A DNA stretch of 10,452 nt from Alphaproteobacteria bacterium (GTDB taxonomy: Bacteria > Pseudomonadota > Alphaproteobacteria > Micropepsales > Micropepsaceae), in assembly GCA_015654715.1 (NCBI GenBank), contig JAATGK010000132.1:1-10452 (forward strand), read 5' to 3'. The number at the start of each line of letters is the position of its first letter. The stretch's first letter is position 1. The translations under genes were made by a program, and so were the position numbers. The notes beneath the pieces were generated by a model. The model ran no database searches, had not been told where the DNA came from, and saw only the letters and a program-made list of their open reading frames with translations. Of this stretch, positions 1-6,749 are shown piece after piece.

Positions 1-399
1 CGCCGCGAAAGCTACTCCAGTCCGGTGATGCCGCGCATGACGAACACTTACATGCTGGCAGGCGACAAAAGCCCGGAAGAAATCATGGCGAGCGTGGAAA
101 AAGGCATCTACGCCACCAATTTCGGCGGCGGCCAGTTTGACATCACCAACGGCAAATTCGTCTTCACCTGCACCGAGGCTTACCGGATCGAGAACGGCAA
201 AGTCGGCGCCCCGATCAAAGGTGCCACCCTGATCGGCAACGGCCCGGATTGTCTCACCCGCGTCACGATGATCGGCAACGACATGAAACTCGACGCCGGT
301 ATCGGCACCTGCGGCAAGAACGGCCAAAGCGTCCCGGTCGGCGTCGGCCAGCCGACCCTGCGAATGGACGGCCTGACGGTGGGCGGCACGGCGGCGTAA
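1..399 (+). CDS. tldD: TldD-type metalloprotease, C-terminal part (5' end outside window)
   Basis: The reading frame is open from base 1 and ends at TAA 397-399, so only the last 132 codons are present. The segment matches the C-terminal domain of the TldD subunit of the TldD/PmbA (TldE) metalloprotease. Recognisable stretches are [13 protein letters not shown] near its start, [20 protein letters not shown] in the middle, and [19 protein letters not shown] followed by MDGLTVGGT at the end. From family knowledge, TldD works with PmbA in the cytoplasm to cleave unfolded or modified peptides; the zinc-binding HExxxH motif lies upstream of this window. The final codons hold a 21-bp sequence that recurs exactly at 1123-1143. 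A C6T6 run follows the stop, but I see no hairpin in front of it. Identification is firm; the N-terminal half cannot be judged. Confidence 0.93.
375..395 (+). repeat. 21-bp direct repeat, copy 1 (tldD 3' end)
   Basis: This sequence starts GACGGTGGGC and ends ACGGCGGC. It encodes the last residues of TldD (TVGGTAA) and is repeated exactly, in the same orientation, at 1123-1143. Between the copies lies one complete toxin-antitoxin pair. It resembles the footprint of an insertion at, or duplication of, a gene 3' end, but no integrase is visible. Confidence 0.75.
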
Positions 400-422
400 C
401 GGCGGCCCCCCTTTTTTATGAC

Positions 423-461
423 TTGACCTTTTTATGGTACATGCCCATTATATGGTGCATG
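423..461 (+). promoter_or_regulatory. Promoter with overlapping operator of the first toxin-antitoxin pair
   Basis: A sigma70-like promoter is readable: TTGACC (423-428), 17-bp spacer, CATTAT (446-451). Two near-identical 11-mers, TATGGTACATG (433-443) and TATGGTGCATG (451-461), lie 18 bp apart. The outer CATG boxes (440-443 and 458-461) also frame an imperfect inverted repeat centred at 450/451, right on the -10 box. This arrangement suits an autorepressor, presumably the HTH antitoxin at 813-1106. The repeats and spacing are seen directly; the regulator is inferred. Confidence 0.55.
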
Positions 462-471
462 TGAGGCGGCC

Positions 472-813
472 ATGGATGCCCGCAAAACACCTGTCGTCTT
501 CTTCCAATCGACGTCTGGCGGCGAGCCGGTACGCGATTGGCTGAAAGCTTTAAGCCGCTCGGATCGCCACGCCGCCGGTCAGGACTTGATGCGGCTGCAA
601 TACCGCTGGCCGGTGGGAATGCCGCTGTGCCGAGCACTCGGCGACGGCCTGTGGGAAGTGCGCACAACCCTACCCAGCCGCCGGATCGCCCGGATGCTGT
701 TTTGTTTTCACGATGGGGAACTCTTCATCCTGCACGGCTTCATCAAGAAAACGCAAAAAACGCCGGAACAGGACCTCTCCCTGGCGCGGAAAAGAATGAA
801 GGAGATCGGCTAA
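472..813 (+). CDS. RelE/ParE-superfamily toxin, HigB-like (phage Gp49 / DUF891 family)
   Basis: This 113-residue protein has the Gp49-like toxin layout. An N-terminal strand (VVFFQS, 8-13) is followed by the EPVRDWLKAL helix (18-27), MPLCRALGDGLWEVRTTLPSRRIARMLF across the middle (50-77), then FILHGFIKKTQKTP (85-98) and a basic C-terminal helix. From family knowledge such proteins are ribosome-dependent mRNA interferases that arrest translation until neutralised by the partner antitoxin. GAGG at 463-466 precedes the ATG by 5 nt and supports this start. The stop TAA shares its last base with the ATG of the antitoxin gene, implying translational coupling. The toxin-first order is typical of HigBA modules. 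The family call is strong; activity and exact mRNA specificity are not visible from sequence. Confidence 0.87.
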   Translation: MDARKTPVVFFQSTSGGEPVRDWLKALSRSDRHAAGQDLMRLQYRWPVGMPLCRALGDGLWEVRTTLPSRRIARMLFCFHDGELFILHGFIKKTQKTPEQDLSLARKRMKEIG

Positions 814-1106
814 TGGCAAAAAAGAAGAAAAACCCGCATCGCGGCACGACGCTGGAGTCCTTCCTCGCCGAAGAAGGTATCCTCGAAGAAACGCAAACCC
901 TCGCGATCAAGGAAGTTCTGGCTTGGCAGCTTCTGGAAGCGATGCGGACGCGCAAACTTTCACGCAGCCGTCTGGCGCTGGAAATGGGAACCAGCCGCAG
1001 CCAGATTGGGCGCCTGCTTGACCCCACCGACGGCAACGTCACGCTGGCAACGCTTCAGCGCGCAGCAGCAGCCATCGGCCGCAAAGTGCGGGTGGAACTG
1101 ATTTAG
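813..1106 (+). CDS. HTH (XRE-like) antitoxin of the HigB-like toxin
   Basis: This 97-residue protein begins at the ATG whose A is the last base of the toxin's TAA. AAGGAG (799-804) lies 8 nt upstream, so this start is preferred over the longer frame-open extension. A lysine-rich N-terminus (AKKKKNPHR) leads to a helical section. The DNA-binding helix-turn-helix is at about 50-70 (SRSRLALEMGTSRSQIGRLL, then the conserved-looking DPTDGNVTLATLQRAA), and a C-terminal strand KVRVELI closes the protein. By family knowledge it binds and neutralises the toxin and represses its own promoter; the CATG-flanked repeats at 433-461 are the likely target. It is followed by a second copy of the tldD 3'-end repeat. 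Confidence 0.87.
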   Translation: MAKKKKNPHRGTTLESFLAEEGILEETQTLAIKEVLAWQLLEAMRTRKLSRSRLALEMGTSRSQIGRLLDPTDGNVTLATLQRAAAAIGRKVRVELI

Positions 1107-1122
1107 GCGCGCGCTGCGTCTC

Positions 1123-1143
1123 GACGGTGGGCGGCACGGCGGC
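1123..1143 (+). repeat. 21-bp direct repeat, copy 2
   Basis: Exact second copy of bases 375-395, 748 bp downstream, starting 17 bases after the antitoxin stop codon. Similarity stops abruptly on the left and fades on the right, where a loose gapped resemblance (TAAC versus GAAC) may continue. Read in the tldD frame it still encodes TVGGTAA and stays open into the small membrane protein gene at 1178. Confidence 0.75.
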
Positions 1144-1177
1144 TTGGAACAGCCGAGCATTCTTCTGTGGGGCGAAG

Positions 1178-1432
1178 ATGAGCAAAGCGTGGTTTGCACC
1201 AAAGAAATACGGTTACGGTTCGGGGCTGCCGGTTAGCTGGGAAGGCTGGGTGCTCCTGGCGATTTTTTTTGCTGGGAGTTCAGCATTACCCTTTCTCGCC
1301 GTCGCGTGGCTGCCGCCTGCGGTTGCCGCTGCTGTGACGTTTTCCGGTATCGTCATTCTCGTCGCGGCCCTCGTCCTGATCGCTCGCGCCAAAACCGAAG
1401 GCGGCTGGCGCTGGCGTAATGGCAAGGACTGA
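1178..1432 (+). CDS. Small two-helix membrane protein, function unknown
   Basis: This 84-residue protein starts MSKAWFAPKKYGYGSGLP, an aromatic and basic head (1-18) followed by VSWEGW. Two hydrophobic segments are clear: about 23-43 (VLLAIFFAGSSALPFLAVAWL) and about 48-69 (AVAAAVTFSGIVILVAALVLIA). The short hydrophilic tail is KTEGGWRWRNGKD. I chose the ATG at 1178 because a G-rich Shine-Dalgarno-like stretch (GGGGCGAAG) precedes it and the composition changes there. The open frame could also start at GTG 1127, but that extension runs through the 21-bp repeat and reads like non-coding sequence. The head motif (WFxPKxYGYGxGLPxxWxGW) looks like that of uncharacterised small inner-membrane proteins of proteobacteria. 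It lies between two toxin-antitoxin pairs, but nothing shows a functional link. I do not know its role. Confidence 0.75.
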   Translation: MSKAWFAPKKYGYGSGLPVSWEGWVLLAIFFAGSSALPFLAVAWLPPAVAAAVTFSGIVILVAALVLIARAKTEGGWRWRNGKD

Positions 1433-1444
1433 CGGCCCATTGCT

Positions 1445-1473
1445 TTGACATGTGCAGCACATGTGACTATCAT
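1445..1473 (+). promoter_or_regulatory. Sigma70-type promoter of the vapBC/fitAB operon
   Basis: TTGACA (1445-1450) and TATCAT (1468-1473) are separated by exactly 17 bp, a near-consensus promoter. Transcription should start about 6-8 bases after the -10 box, near 1480, essentially at the proposed ATG. Together with the lack of a Shine-Dalgarno sequence, this suggests a leaderless or nearly leaderless mRNA. Confidence 0.68.
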
Positions 1474-1483
1474 TTTCACATGT
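1448..1483 (+). promoter_or_regulatory. Palindromic operator (ACATGTGC-A-GCACATGT plus a third half-site)
   Basis: Bases 1448-1464 form a perfect palindrome: 8-bp arms around a single central A. It covers the 3' half of the -35 box and most of the spacer. A third CACATGT half-site (1477-1483) lies at the predicted transcription start and overlaps the ATG. Ribbon-helix-helix antitoxins of the FitA/VapB type bind inverted repeats in their own promoter, so autorepression by the adjacent gene product is the natural reading. The repeat is seen directly; the regulator is inferred. Confidence 0.65.
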
Positions 1484-1728
1484 CCAAGATGATCCAATTG
1501 CGCAATGTCCCGGACGCGCTGCATCGGCGGCTGAAAGCCTGTGCGGCGAGCGAAGGTTTGACGCTGTCCGATTTCCTGACGCGGGAAGCCAAGAAAATTG
1601 CCGAACGGCCGACCCAGCAAGAATTCCTGGCGCGGCTGCGCGCTCTGCCGGTGCGCCATCTCAAAGTTTCACCAACCGCGATCATCCGTGAAGAACGCGA
1701 CCGGCGCAGCGGCGATGATCGTCGTTGA
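1480..1728 (+). CDS. vapB: FitA/VapB-type ribbon-helix-helix antitoxin
   Basis: This 82-residue protein has an Arc/MetJ-type ribbon-helix-helix at its N-terminus: strand MIQLRNVP (4-11), helix A DALHRRLKACAASEG (12-26), then LTLSDFLTREAKKIAE (27-42). The region from about 45 to 82 is the toxin-contacting tail and ends in a strongly charged REERDRRSGDDRR. From family knowledge the N-terminus binds the operator and an Arg in the tail reaches into the PIN active site of the partner. Start choice: ATG 1450 would lie inside the -35 box and is rejected. ATG 1480 sits at the predicted transcription start, and ATG 1489 is a second option. No Shine-Dalgarno sequence is visible for either. The last 14 bases overlap the start of the toxin gene. 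Confidence 0.87.
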   Translation: MSKMIQLRNVPDALHRRLKACAASEGLTLSDFLTREAKKIAERPTQQEFLARLRALPVRHLKVSPTAIIREERDRRSGDDRR

Positions 1729-2104
1729 TGCCTCGGTGGCGTTCGAGATCGCGCTGCGGACCCCGCTCGGCCTCAGCGCCGCTGAGCGCCTTGCGGACGA
1801 AGACCTTCATGTCCCCCATCTGGTCGATCTGGAGATCGCGAGCGCGCTCCGGCGTCTCGTCCTCGCCAAGGAAATCGACGTGGATGCCGCCGAAGAAGCC
1901 TTGCTCGCCTTGATGGAATGGCCGTTGATACGCCACGCGCACACGGCGTTATTGCCGCGCATCTGGACTTTGCGCCATGGCGTTTCCGCTTACGATGCCT
2001 GCTATGTCGCGCTGGCGGAGACGCTCGGCGTTCCGCTTCTGACCTGCGACGCGCGGCTGGCGCACGCCCACGGCCACAGCGCCAAGATCGAACTGCTAAG
2101 CTAA
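1715..2104 (+). CDS. vapC: VapC/FitB-type PIN-domain ribonuclease toxin
   Basis: This 129-residue PIN-domain protein is of usual length for the family. The acidic residues that bind Mg2+ are all in place: Asp5 in MIVVDASVAFE, Glu40 in HLVDLEIASALRR, Asp94 in GVSAYDACYVALAE, and Asp112 in LLTCDARLA. From family knowledge it is an endoribonuclease, commonly cleaving tRNA or rRNA, held inactive by the upstream antitoxin. ATG 1715 is chosen because MIVVDASV is the canonical PIN N-terminus; it overlaps the antitoxin frame by 14 bp, implying coupled translation. An extended frame from 1598 is open only because it overlays the antitoxin gene. The gene ends 4 bp before the convergent gene at 2109, leaving no room for a separate terminator. 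The active site looks complete. Confidence 0.92.
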   Translation: MIVVDASVAFEIALRTPLGLSAAERLADEDLHVPHLVDLEIASALRRLVLAKEIDVDAAEEALLALMEWPLIRHAHTALLPRIWTLRHGVSAYDACYVALAETLGVPLLTCDARLAHAHGHSAKIELLS

Positions 2105-2108
2105 TTCC

Positions 2109-2789
2109 TCACCACTTGATGTACGCCGCATAGCTCCAGGCGTTGAGCAGCACGTGCGCCAGGATCAGCGGCCACAGGCGGCCGGAGCGCACGTACCAGG
2201 TGCCGAAGATGAGGCCGATCGGGATCATCAAGACCAGACTCATGGTGCCTTGGAAGAGATGCGCCGCCAGCCGGATCGCGATGCTGAGATTGATCGCGAG
2301 ATTGGGCAGCGATTTTTCCTTCAGCGCGGTGATGGCGTAACCGGCGACGAAGACCTCTTCGTACACCGCATTGACCAGGACCAAGGCGCCGACGGCGTAA
2401 GGCGTCAGCGCGGGTGTCGCCACAGCGGCGGTCCTGCCCGCGGGGTGGAGCAAGCTGGGGGCCAGTTTGGCCAGCAGGATGAAGACCAAGTAGATGGCGA
2501 CATAACTGCCGGCCGCCAGCGCCAGCCCCCACAGCCCGTCGATCCAATGGGTGTCGAGCCCCATGCGCTTGCCCGTCCAGCCGCGGCCCCACAGAAAGGC
2601 GCCGAGCACGACAAGGGTGATCGCTTCCAGCCCGACCGTGCGCCACACCCCCATCTCGGCCGGACCGGCCGATCCGGTATGGTGATGGAGGAGCGCCAAC
2701 GCGCTGGAGACGATGGTGAGCCCGAAAGCACCGGCCACGACCACCGCAAACTCCACCGGAAATGGCAGTTTCTGCAGCAGGTTTCGCAT
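2109..2789 (-). CDS. CPBP-family (CAAX protease/bacteriocin-processing, Abi) intramembrane protein
   Basis: This 226-residue polytopic membrane protein has hydrophobic segments at about 13-33, 52-68, 86-107, 131-143, 184-199 and 206-221. The CPBP/Abi motifs are present in variant form. Motif 1 is YEEVFVAGY (Glu144, Glu145), motif 2 is IRLAAHLFQG (His177), and motif 3 is ILAHVLLNA (His212, Asn216). The Arg that usually follows EExxx in motif 1 is replaced (EEVFVAG). A subgroup with EEVxVxGY and RxxxHLxQG is, as I recall it, common in bacteria. By family knowledge these are glutamic-type intramembrane proteases or peptide-immunity proteins; the substrate is unknown. ATG at 2787-2789 (reverse strand) is chosen because upstream frame extension runs into the divergent DUF952 gene. 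It converges on the PIN toxin with a 4-bp gap. Biological role uncertain. Confidence 0.86.
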   Translation of the reverse strand: MRNLLQKLPFPVEFAVVVAGAFGLTIVSSALALLHHHTGSAGPAEMGVWRTVGLEAITLVVLGAFLWGRGWTGKRMGLDTHWIDGLWGLALAAGSYVAIYLVFILLAKLAPSLLHPAGRTAAVATPALTPYAVGALVLVNAVYEEVFVAGYAITALKEKSLPNLAINLSIAIRLAAHLFQGTMSLVLMIPIGLIFGTWYVRSGRLWPLILAHVLLNAWSYAAYIKW

Positions 2790-2852
2790 GAAGCCTCTTT
2801 GCCGAAGGCGGACGACCGGGATAGGAAAGGGCGCAGCCTTCGGAAAACCACG

Positions 2853-3188
2853 ATGATCTACAAGATTTGTCCGGCCGCGGAATGGACGCAAGCGATAGAG
2901 CGACACAGGTATGACGGTTCGCCGCTCGACCGCAAGGACGGCTTCATCCATTTTTCGCAAGGACCCCAGGTGGCCGGGACGCTGGCCAAATACTACGCAG
3001 ACGCGTGCGATCTGGTGCTGGTCGCAGTCGACGAGGCGGGGCTGCAAGGCTTACGCTTCGAACCGTCGCGCGACGGACAATTGTTCCCGCACCTCTACGG
3101 CACGCTGGCGATGCCGCATGTCGTTTGGATCAAGCCGCTCGCACGCGGCGAGGACGGCGCGTTTTTGCTGCCGGAAGAATGCAAGTAA
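2853..3188 (+). CDS. DUF952 domain protein
   Basis: This 111-residue protein covers the whole DUF952 family length. Characteristic features are the IYKI start (2-5), a Trp at 11, DGFIHFSQGPQVAGTLAKYY (29-48), the hydrophobic strand DLVLVAVD (53-60), and GQLFPHLYGTL (75-85). The conserved His33, His80 and Tyr82 could form a pocket. The family has known structures, but I know of no established biochemical function. The frame stays open upstream to 2154, but that extension is antisense to the CPBP gene and is rejected; ATG 2853 coincides with the conserved family start. A convincing Shine-Dalgarno sequence at normal spacing is absent; AGGAAAGGG at 2823-2831 is rather far away. It is divergent from the CPBP gene across a 63-bp gap and is followed by a palindromic repeat. 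Confidence 0.85.
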   Translation: MIYKICPAAEWTQAIERHRYDGSPLDRKDGFIHFSQGPQVAGTLAKYYADACDLVLVAVDEAGLQGLRFEPSRDGQLFPHLYGTLAMPHVVWIKPLARGEDGAFLLPEECK

Positions 3189-4738: not shown

Positions 4739-4784
4739 GCGCTTCCCGAAAAGTGGGCACCGGTTTTCGGATAAGAAGCGCGAC
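4739..4784 (+). repeat. Palindromic repeat, family B, copy 1
   Basis: An extended imperfect hairpin starts 1 bp after the upstream stop codon. The outer arm is GCGCTTC (4739-4745) with GAAGCGC (4775-4781), and the inner arm is CCGAAAA (4746-4752) with TTTTCGG (4764-4770). The loop region is GTGGGCACCGG. The core CCGAAAAGTG...CGGTTTTCGG resembles a palindromic element scattered through alphaproteobacterial genomes. It matches 37 of 46 bases, ungapped, with the reverse strand of 6882-6927. It may act as a transcript-stabilising or attenuating hairpin between the two paralogous genes. Confidence 0.72.
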
Positions 4785-4818
4785 AAAACAAAGAGTGCAA
4801 AGGTTGCATCGATCTTTG

Positions 4819-4835
4819 GGATAAGACATTTATCC
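4819..4835 (+). promoter_or_regulatory. Short inverted repeat upstream of paralogue 2
   Basis: GGATAA (4819-4824) and TTATCC (4830-4835) form a 6-bp inverted repeat with a 5-nt loop, 24 bp before the ATG at 4860. No T-run follows, so it is not a standard terminator. It could be an operator or a leader hairpin; there is no evidence to decide. Confidence 0.3.
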
Positions 4836-4859
4836 GGCCGGTTTACACGGAGAGGAATC

Positions 4860-5285
4860 ATGCGGGCATTGGTATTGATAGCTGCGCTGGCGATGATGAC
4901 CGGCACGGCCTTGGCAAAACCGCCGCATAAGCCCGCCGCGCCGCCCGCCAAGGCGGCCGCTGAGGCGACCTGGATCGTGGTTTGCTTCGACCAGCACGCC
5001 CAATACACGCAAGTTCTCGGCGGAGCGGGCTTCTTCCATGTCGCCAACGACGACCACAGGACCTACGACACCCAGAAGCTGGTGCAGTCCACCTTCGACG
5101 GCAACACGCTGTGCGCCATTCCCGATCCCAAGGCGCCGAAAGCCGCATCGGGCGTGGCCGAAGTCTGCGCCGACCGCAATGGCAAGATGCTGTCGGTGCT
5201 GTACGTGAAAGAGACCGCTACCAAGCGCGTCCTGCCCAAGAACGCCGATCCCTATTGCGAGGCGCACGTCGACGTCGTGCAGTAA
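4860..5285 (+). CDS. Small secreted four-cysteine protein, paralogue 2 (unknown function)
   Basis: This 141-residue precursor has a signal peptide, MRALVLIAALAMMTGTALA, with cleavage likely after ALA at 19. A Lys/Pro/Ala-rich spacer (20-36, KPPHKPAAPPAKAAAEA) that its neighbour lacks follows, then the domain shared with 4378-4737. The cysteines are at 42, 85, 103 and 133, with spacings of 43, 18 and 30 against 42, 16 and 29 in paralogue 1. GAGAGG just upstream supports the start. The Pro/Ala spacer could hold the domain away from the membrane or cell wall, or be flexible; no lipobox or anchor is seen. Tandem duplication followed by divergence is the simplest origin. No known family is recognised, so function is left open. 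Confidence 0.8.
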   Translation: MRALVLIAALAMMTGTALAKPPHKPAAPPAKAAAEATWIVVCFDQHAQYTQVLGGAGFFHVANDDHRTYDTQKLVQSTFDGNTLCAIPDPKAPKAASGVAEVCADRNGKMLSVLYVKETATKRVLPKNADPYCEAHVDVVQ

Positions 5286-5309
5286 TAAATTCTCAGGACG
5301 TGCCTATAC

Positions 5310-5367
5310 CAACGGCCTAATCCCAAACTCTTTCCGTCATGGCCGAACATCAAGCCCGGCCATGACG
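5310..5367. repeat. Palindromic repeat, family A, between convergent genes
   Basis: CGTCATGGCCG (5335-5345) and CGGCCATGACG (5357-5367) form a perfect 11-bp stem with an 11-nt loop. A leader, CAACGGCCTAATCCCAAAC, comes before it. It lies between the stop of the secreted protein gene (5285) and the stop of gshA (5385), where a bidirectional hairpin could serve both transcripts, although no T-run follows on either side. The stem ends match the termini of the 100-bp repeat at 3197-3296. The leader plus left half matches 7722-7772 in about 40 of 51 aligned columns. Confidence 0.75.
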
Positions 5368-5384
5368 ATTAGGGGTTGCTGATA

Positions 5385-6749
5385 TTACAGGAAATTGTAT
5401 TCCGTAAAGATCTGCTTGAGGTCCTTGCCCCAATCGGTGCGGTATTTCTGTAAAAGTTCTTCGGCGCGCGTGTAGCCGCGATTGACCAACTCGCGCAAGG
5501 GGACGAGGAAGCCCTCTTCCGTCATGCCGATGGCATCGTGCGCGGCGCGGCGCCTCAAACCTTCCGCCGAAATTTCCAGCATGCGCTGTGCCAGTTCCCA
5601 TACCGTGGACTTGCGGAACGGGGTCTGGAAGGCTGTACGCGCCACGCAATCGCGCATCGCCTGACGCTCGGCAGTCGTCCAATCCTTGACCATGTCCCAA
5701 GCGGCATCGAGGGCGACGTCGTCGTAGAGAATGCCGACCCATAATGCCGGCATGCCGCAGATGCGCCGCCAAGTGCCGCCGTCGGCGCCGCGCATTTCGA
5801 GGAATTTCTTGAGCCGCACTTCCGGGAAAATGGTGGTGAGGTGATCGGCCCAATCCGACATCTGCGGCTCGATGTGCGCCACTTCGGGGATTTTGTGCGC
5901 CATAAAATCGCGGAAACTTTTGCCCGCCAGATCAATGTATTTGCCGTCGCGATAGATGAAGTACATCGGCACATCGAGCACGTAATCGACATAACGCTCG
6001 AAACCCATGCCGGAATCGAACACCCACGGCAGCATGCCGGCGCGATCGTTGTCGACATCGGTCCAGACTTGGGCGCGATAAGAGAGGAAGCCGTTGTGCT
6101 TGCCTTCGCGGAACGGCGAATTGGCGAACAAAGCGGTCGCCACCGGCTGCAGCGCTAAGGCGACGCGGAATTTCTTGACCATGTCGGCTTCGGAGGAGAA
6201 GTCGAGATTGACCTGCACGGTACAGGTGCGGAACATCATCTCTTCGCCATAGCCGCCGACCTTCGGCATATAGCGCTTCATGATCTCGTAGCGTCCTTTC
6301 GGCATCGGATAGACTTCCGACAGCGGCCAGGTCGGCGCATAGCCGAGACCGATCGCACCGGCGCCGATCTCGGCGGCGACCTGGCGCACCTGCTGCTTGT
6401 GGATGTTCACCTCGGCACAAGTCTCATGCACCGTTTTCAAGGGCGCGCCCGACAGCTCGAACTGGCCGCCCGGCTCCAGACTGATGCCGGCGCCGTTCTG
6501 GGTCAGGCCGATGATGTTCTCGCCTTCCAGCACCGGCTCCCAGCCGAATTTCTGCATGCCTTGGAGCAAGGCTTTGATGCCGGGAACGCCTTCGTAGCGC
6601 AGCGGGTTGTGGGTCTTCAGGCAGTAGACGAATTTCTCGTGCTCGGTGCCGATGCGCCAATCCTCGCGCGGCTTGCTGCCATCGGCCAGATAACGCACGA
6701 GATCGTCGCGCGATTCGATAGGCCCGCCGGCCGACTGCGGAATAGACAT
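5385..6749 (-). CDS. gshA: Glutamate-cysteine ligase (plant/alphaproteobacterial type)
   Basis: This 454-residue enzyme joins L-glutamate and L-cysteine with ATP to give gamma-glutamylcysteine, the first and committed step of glutathione synthesis in the cytoplasm. Signature stretches are IGTEHEKF (33-40), SLEPGGQFELSG (90-101), PKGRYEIMKRYMP (150-162), and FRTCTVQVNLDF (173-184); these fit the GCS2-type fold of the plant-like group. The start is ATG 6747-6749 on the reverse strand, with GAGG 5 nt upstream of it; an in-frame extension to 6824 covers promoter-like sequence and is rejected. Length is normal and the C-terminus ends TEYNFL. It lies downstream of rsmE in the same direction, separated by 158 bp that hold a repeat and a candidate promoter, so it probably has its own transcription start. 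Confidence 0.96.
   Translation of the reverse strand: MSIPQSAGGPIESRDDLVRYLADGSKPREDWRIGTEHEKFVYCLKTHNPLRYEGVPGIKALLQGMQKFGWEPVLEGENIIGLTQNGAGISLEPGGQFELSGAPLKTVHETCAEVNIHKQQVRQVAAEIGAGAIGLGYAPTWPLSEVYPMPKGRYEIMKRYMPKVGGYGEEMMFRTCTVQVNLDFSSEADMVKKFRVALALQPVATALFANSPFREGKHNGFLSYRAQVWTDVDNDRAGMLPWVFDSGMGFERYVDYVLDVPMYFIYRDGKYIDLAGKSFRDFMAHKIPEVAHIEPQMSDWADHLTTIFPEVRLKKFLEMRGADGGTWRRICGMPALWVGILYDDVALDAAWDMVKDWTTAERQAMRDCVARTAFQTPFRKSTVWELAQRMLEISAEGLRRRAAHDAIGMTEEGFLVPLRELVNRGYTRAEELLQKYRTDWGKDLKQIFTEYNFL

Follow-up and report, generated by a model that had tools for sequence, protein, structure and literature searches.

The analyzed stretch of DNA (10,452 nucleotides; hereafter the window) opens with the 3′ part of tldD, which encodes a metalloprotease subunit (1–399, forward strand, with the stop codon TAA at 397–399; PF19289, E = 1.5e-30). 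This part also matched the metalloprotease TldD model NF008006 at 2e-62, under a cut-off that is set for the whole protein. A promoter-like site identified by consensus scan (TTGACC-17-CATTAT, 423–451, forward strand) precedes a predicted toxin–antitoxin operon on the same strand. The first gene (472–813) encodes a predicted toxin of the Gp49/HigB (RelE/ParE-type) family, with matches to PF05973 (6.9e-22) and the HigB toxin 6af3_A (1.2e-8), and weak PADLOC matches to NsnC models. Its plasmid relatives, at 61% identity, are annotated as RelE/ParE family. The second gene (813–1106), the start of which shares 1 base with the toxin stop codon, encodes a predicted antitoxin with a Cro/C1-type helix-turn-helix (HTH). 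The pair shares with HigBA/Gp49-type II pairs the toxin-first order, the HTH antitoxin and the overlapping genes, and differs from them in that all HTH matches of the antitoxin (E = 0.0036–0.06, the best being PF13443 at 0.0036) lie below curated cut-offs; a search of solved structures returned no relative of the antitoxin at 0.1. An antitoxin homologue stands beside a toxin homologue at 14 other loci (30 loci were fetched for the toxin and 16 rows held both genes, from which the window and L090, a duplicate of L073, were subtracted). At one of these, L067 (G067), the homologous pair is flanked by a 14-bp direct repeat, TTTCGACCCTCCCG; controls for the left flank in question do not exceed 10.

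Downstream of the pair, a weak terminator-like stem-loop (1142–1158, forward strand), which overlaps the rear end of the second repeat copy described below, was found by consensus scan; the same type of scan gave five terminator-like sites in 330–1520 compared to 1.8 expected. It is followed by 'msk' (1178–1432, forward strand), a gene for a small membrane-like protein without a Pfam family and a frequent downstream neighbor of tldD in the genus. A second toxin–antitoxin operon (1445–2104, forward strand) comprises a promoter-like site (1445–1473), a FitA/VapB-like ORF (starting at 1450 or 1480 and ending at 1728; PF22513 at 3.6e-5, below cut-off) and a PIN toxin gene (1718–2104; PF01850, 2.4e-13); its match to NF050181 is likewise below cut-off. 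Over 414 alignment columns, 1445–1857 of this FitAB-like operon is 75% identical in DNA to the operon located just after tldD in the relative G020 (L108), and the similarity begins at the promoter-like site. A CPBP/Rce1-like protease gene (2109–2906, reverse strand; PF02517, 2.5e-14) and a DUF952 protein gene (2853–3188, forward strand; PF06108, 2.7e-27) follow, the latter being the right-hand syntenic anchor of the region. The remaining window genes, as scanned, are ordinary.

The direct repeat and its rear copy

The first-pass annotation had described the toxin–antitoxin pair as enclosed by two identical, like-oriented copies of the 3′ end of tldD, and the description is correct. The 21-mer GACGGTGGGCGGCACGGCGGC occurs at 375–395 (copy 1, the last sense codons of tldD) and, identical and on the same forward strand, at 1123–1143 (copy 2), at a spacing of 748. 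The 727 bp between the copies contain the complete operon as described, with its promoter-like site. Copy 2 is indeed downstream of the antitoxin stop codon (1104–1106) but does not directly adjoin it as had been stated, as it starts 16 bases further on.

That the 21-mer might be a common GC-rich word had been named as a point against the repeat. In the organism's own draft assembly (74% complete, 518 contigs, 4% contamination), the exact 21-mer is found at these two places only; with up to three mismatches allowed, the search added two further places, each with three mismatches, and a reversed control pattern gave four. We then compared 139 tldD loci (the window, 58 from the same genus and 80 others that come from named genomes, with L153 and L154 duplicating two genus loci) and determined the longest stretch of the final 48 bases of tldD that recurs exactly within 4 kb downstream. 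The full 4 kb was present in 48 of the 58 genus loci and 64 of the 80 others. This length was 21 for the window, and no other locus exceeded 13; none of the other 138 contains the exact 21-mer. Simulation of the 4 kb downstream with an order-3 Markov model reached 16 in one of 3,000 runs and never more, from which a length of 21 can be extrapolated to about 1e-6. The 21-bp repeat is not a product of chance.

Copy 2 may extend beyond the exact 21 bases. Approximately 36 bp (~1111–1147, forward strand, the left limit being approximate) can be read as a relic tldD 3′ end, an assignment that is supported but post hoc. Relative to a tldD end, this stretch lacks 8 bp, differs in its upstream codons and reads TGG (1145–1147) at the position of the stop codon; in tldD, two GACGG words lie 8 bp apart. 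When offset by the 8 nt expected for slippage between these words, the 9 nt that precede copy 2 agree with the tldD genes of 58 relatives at a mean of 6.28 of 9, compared to at most 3.72 of 9 for the other 15 offsets. Five of 2,000 shuffles and none of 2,000 window segments performed as well on the mean at this offset (47 and 6, respectively, on the best single match), and lengths of 12–18 nt gave 2–19 of 2,000 shuffles and 0–11 of 2,000 window segments as good on the mean. Two earlier, less specific tests of longer homology had given less. The first, a free-gap alignment of the sequence before copy 2, was negative, as 186 of 300 shuffles were as good on the best score and 83 of 300 on the mean; the second was weak, with 33, 13, 92 and 12 of 400 shuffles as good at 9, 12, 14 and 16 nt, respectively. 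Because the 8-nt offset had been spotted by eye before the fixed-offset test, the result supports the longer relic without proving it.

Copy 2 contains RL-type codons, as do 43 of 59 tldD ends, while the window's own tldD has RM codons that are otherwise found only in G007, G065 and G004 among the 59. Copy 2 looks like the decayed end of another tldD allele rather than a fresh duplicate of the front copy. The position of its lost stop is 30 bp before msk; in G032, the one genome used for this comparison, which lacks the pair, the tldD stop is 32 bp from msk, and in other relatives with msk directly after tldD the gap ranges from an overlap to ~60 bp. The DNA similarity of the toxin–antitoxin pair to its best homologue (L064) stops at 1112. 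The tldD tails of the window and G062 have 26 exact bases in common; as tails from different species share words this long, 21 identical bases do not require a site-specific core.

The slot downstream of tldD in relatives

The 3′ side of tldD is a slot occupied by differing toxin–antitoxin operons (CcdAB, FitAB-like and Gp49/HigB-like). In relatives, the core genes tldD and DUF952, the latter often downstream of tldD in the genus, bracket varying cargo. The Gp49 pair is found at tldD in the window alone (0 of 58 genus relatives), while ccdAB is present at tldD in 14 of 58, in eight cases before DUF952 or where DUF952 was not found and in six beyond it. Two relatives (G010 and G083) have ccdA alone, and G020 has FitAB-like genes. 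Searches detected msk in 15 of 61 genomes, and it lies downstream of tldD in 23 of the 58 relatives, one of these being a short remnant. The ORFs of the slot were called mechanically as the longest ones, and some are consequently in the wrong frame; in G020, for instance, an antisense ORF was called in place of the FitAB genes. In L133 (G030), the ORF at 4754–5428, 42 bp after the tldD stop, is, judging by its first residues, most likely the slot ORF that matches GIY-YIG/T5orf172 nuclease-type domains.

The window tldD resembles that of the sister G007 over the whole tldD end, and in G007 only 200 bp separate tldD from the CPBP gene. An inverted repeat, GTCATGGCCGGGCTTGACCCGGCC ... GGCGGCCATGACG, is located ~70–165 bp after the tldD stop in G007 (L092), in the place occupied in the window by msk and both toxin–antitoxin pairs.

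Within the downstream stretch present (up to 4 kb), 56 of the 58 relatives have a single tldD tail, as does a 59th, G003. The other two, G061 and G020, carry an additional, diverged tail located 11 bp past the stop codon of tldD, with scores of 19.2 and 16.2, compared to a background over 59 loci of 11.5 for the best reverse-strand match and 8.8 for the next forward one. The second tail stands before CcdAB genes in G061 and before FitAB-like genes in G020, both of which lack the Gp49 pair. It is missing in G032, the sister of G061, and in G073, G026 and G031, the clade mates of G020. The tldD tree does not group G061 and G020 as sisters, and the three tail carriers, including the window, require three changes on it. 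In both G061 (L094) and G020 (L108), the tandem tldD end falls in the first 40 bp after the stop and follows the same 11-bp spacer, CGGCCGCGGGC.

Origin of the two tldD ends

We favor, with moderate confidence, the interpretation that the two tldD ends are the scar of homology-assisted illegitimate recombination in the toxin–antitoxin slot. Recombination between related bacteria would have been anchored by homology on one side, in tldD or, at the opposite end, in the CPBP/DUF952 genes, and closed on the other side by an illegitimate join ~45 bp before a tldD stop. This would leave two tldD ends flanking the operon, with the front copy providing the functional end of the gene. No longer under selection, the rear copy would have lost its stop codon, and 8 bp through slippage between the two GACGG words, and would still stand ahead of msk, the gene that often follows tldD in the genus. 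The imported part could be either the front (tldD end and pair) or the rear (relic end, msk and FitAB). Both the route and the imported side are ones that we infer; as the window tldD end is like that of G007 throughout, the front copy does not look imported, and import of the rear is tentatively favored. No donor or intermediate genome for such a recombination was found. Against the relic reading, 21 of 21 identical bases exceeds the expectation for an old displaced allele.

Segments of this kind have been described. In the part of one comparative study available to us (PMC2884548), direct repeats, mostly <30 bp, flank 10–18% of small variable segments, and homology-assisted illegitimate recombination is one proposed cause; PMC3240628 appears to treat a related subject. 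The window resembles those segments in having a small cargo between core genes, a repeat of <30 bp, no recombinase seen and cargo that differs between relatives. It differs in that the repeat is the recognizable end of the upstream core gene and that the rear copy has lost its stop. The repeat is a specimen of a known kind, and it illustrates that, where exact copies of a gene's end enclose a small operon, one of them can be a leftover of that end instead of the mark of a dedicated insertion system. The comparisons made here indicate which ones separate a relic tail from a dedicated insertion system.

The second tail could instead be older than the pair, an ancestor with tandem tldD ends like those of G061 and G020 having received the operon between them later. 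We consider this unlikely. The tandem tails of the two relatives, with scores well clear of the next forward one, show that such an arrangement exists in the genus, but neither the spacer CGGCCGCGGGC nor an intact GCGTAA is seen around copy 2, both G007 and G032 are single-tailed, and in the tree of tldD the three carriers again imply three changes. The idea that copy 2 descends directly from the tandem tails of G061 and G020 was rejected, as their sequence does not fit.

Integrative elements enter the 3′ ends of genes, such as tRNA genes, and rebuild them. As in such elements, the cargo in the window is flanked by two copies of a gene end, and the first-pass annotation had read the pair as a cassette that entered at tldD and left a duplicated site. 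Of that proposal, the duplicated tldD end around a whole operon stands, and the insertion site does not. Site-specific integration, in which a recombinase acting from elsewhere inserted the operon at the 3′ end of tldD with duplication of a 21-bp core, is in our judgment improbable, even though cargo does lie between exact direct copies of a gene's 3′ end. Unlike integrative elements, the window has no integrase, no attachment site elsewhere and no clean empty site that could be found.

The empty site predicted for a clean cassette is a single 21-mer joined directly to TTGGAACAGC (1144 onward). Such a join has no stop codon, so that tldD would run in frame into msk (ORF 1127–1432). While relatives lacking the pair are single-tailed, as had been anticipated, in 56 of 58 cases, the anticipated junction of the exact 21-mer with the sequence after 1143 was found at 0 of 138 loci, and a search with the 12-mer after 1143 returned one unrelated record only and no empty site. 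G061 and G020, without the pair yet with a second, diverged tail, are relatives of the type that had been named beforehand as contradicting the cassette. Nor does the same repeat surround the pair elsewhere: at none of the 14 other loci (one with a short left flank and one with a masked one) was a tldD tail or a flanking direct repeat >14 bp found, and the pair without the repeat had likewise been named beforehand as contradicting the cassette.

The absence of an integrase, noted in the first reading, was confirmed in the scanned window genes and extends to the relatives' downstream ORFs. Among 78 of these, no integrase or transposase family was seen in the commonest 25 of 57 Pfam families or in the full Pfam lists available for 49 ORFs, the other 29 being window genes or matches to msk, ccdAB, CPBP, ATP synthase or a Clp-type ATPase. 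A degenerate pattern for the tldD end matched 35 times, in 34 of 69 genomes, compared to three matches for a backwards control; 34 were at tldD and one, in G061, was inside an unrelated ORF and was discarded, leaving no orphan tldD tail among them, with a pattern that does not detect the tldD ends of half the genomes and would overlook tails that have decayed. None of 26 viral matches had tldD context. In the literature searched, the sole mention bearing on tldD as an attachment site, and a point in favor of integration, is a table in the accessible part of PMC3091717, in which plasticity regions adjoin tldD in Photorhabdus and Xenorhabdus; the available portion of PMC6207609 has tldD as cargo only. 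With no stop in the empty site, no repeat elsewhere and no integrase seen, clean cassette insertion with an att-like core was rejected as the main reading.

An assembly artefact, in which a short-read assembler fused two strains at a shared 21-mer, is very improbable. The draft does consist of 518 contigs with 4% contamination. Furthermore, 21 is a common starting k-mer in short-read assembly. Against fusion, both copies lie within coherent flanks of their own, and the right-hand order from msk to CPBP–DUF952 agrees with that in G032, G061 and G010. Chance similarity of GC-rich words is the least credible account, for although a 24-base match at 96% to 376–399 occurs in G090 at an unrelated place inside a long ORF, copy 2 lies just downstream of tldD at one of 139 loci, and both the Markov simulation and the upstream extension of copy 2 speak against coincidence. 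The tail-like matches in G090, all in long unrelated ORFs, were themselves taken as chance.

Linkage of ccdAB to tldD

The linkage of ccdAB to tldD is the better lead and matters more than the repeat itself. CcdB was found in 15 of 69 genus genomes, one each, and in 14 of these 15 it is encoded within ~4 kb downstream of tldD, the 15th (G082) not having been placed relative to tldD. Examples of the linked loci are L094, L260, L120 and L146. According to the accessible text of PMC5810440, Escherichia coli TldD/E degrades the CcdA41 fragment, and full-length CcdA is stable in vitro. The genus parallels that system in having ccdAB at tldD, and the window differs from it in lacking ccdAB. Together, the 14 of 15 linkage and the action of E. 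coli TldD on a CcdA fragment make a role of TldD/E in toxin–antitoxin control directly testable. Among the titles and abstracts listed in searches of the literature on these genes, no ccdAB–tldD linkage was found.

Across the class outside the genus, a TldD-family gene lies within ~8 kb (less where contigs end) at 5 of 36 CcdB loci compared to 1 of 40 MazF loci, among the matches listed. The CcdB set comprises 36 of 37 matches, one below cut-off having been dropped, and the MazF set the first 40 of a longer list. Two of the five linked CcdB loci are from one genus, and at four of the five the TldD-family protein is 27–31% like the window TldD and presumably PmbA/TldE. A class-wide link of CcdB to TldD/PmbA genes is suggestive at best and not a firm difference.

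The CcdAB–tldD pattern in the genus could be explained by a single old insertion that was inherited vertically, without any further cause. A more speculative idea, to which we attach little probability, is that the tldD 3′ side is a dedicated slot because TldD/TldE clears the adjoining antitoxins; protease and toxin–antitoxin pair would then be inherited as a unit, with the conserved tldD end acting as a homology handle for exchanging one pair for another and leaving relic tails such as copy 2. Three further loci place ccd genes next to tldD. In G047 (L292, 6603–8552), from another family, ccdB is convergent with tldD and lies ~10 bp after the tldD stop. In a Hyphomicrobiales record (L230, 3699–4691), ccdAB is found ~70 bp after a tldD match, and in an alphaproteobacterial draft (L152, 6001–7137) it is found ~210 bp after tldD.
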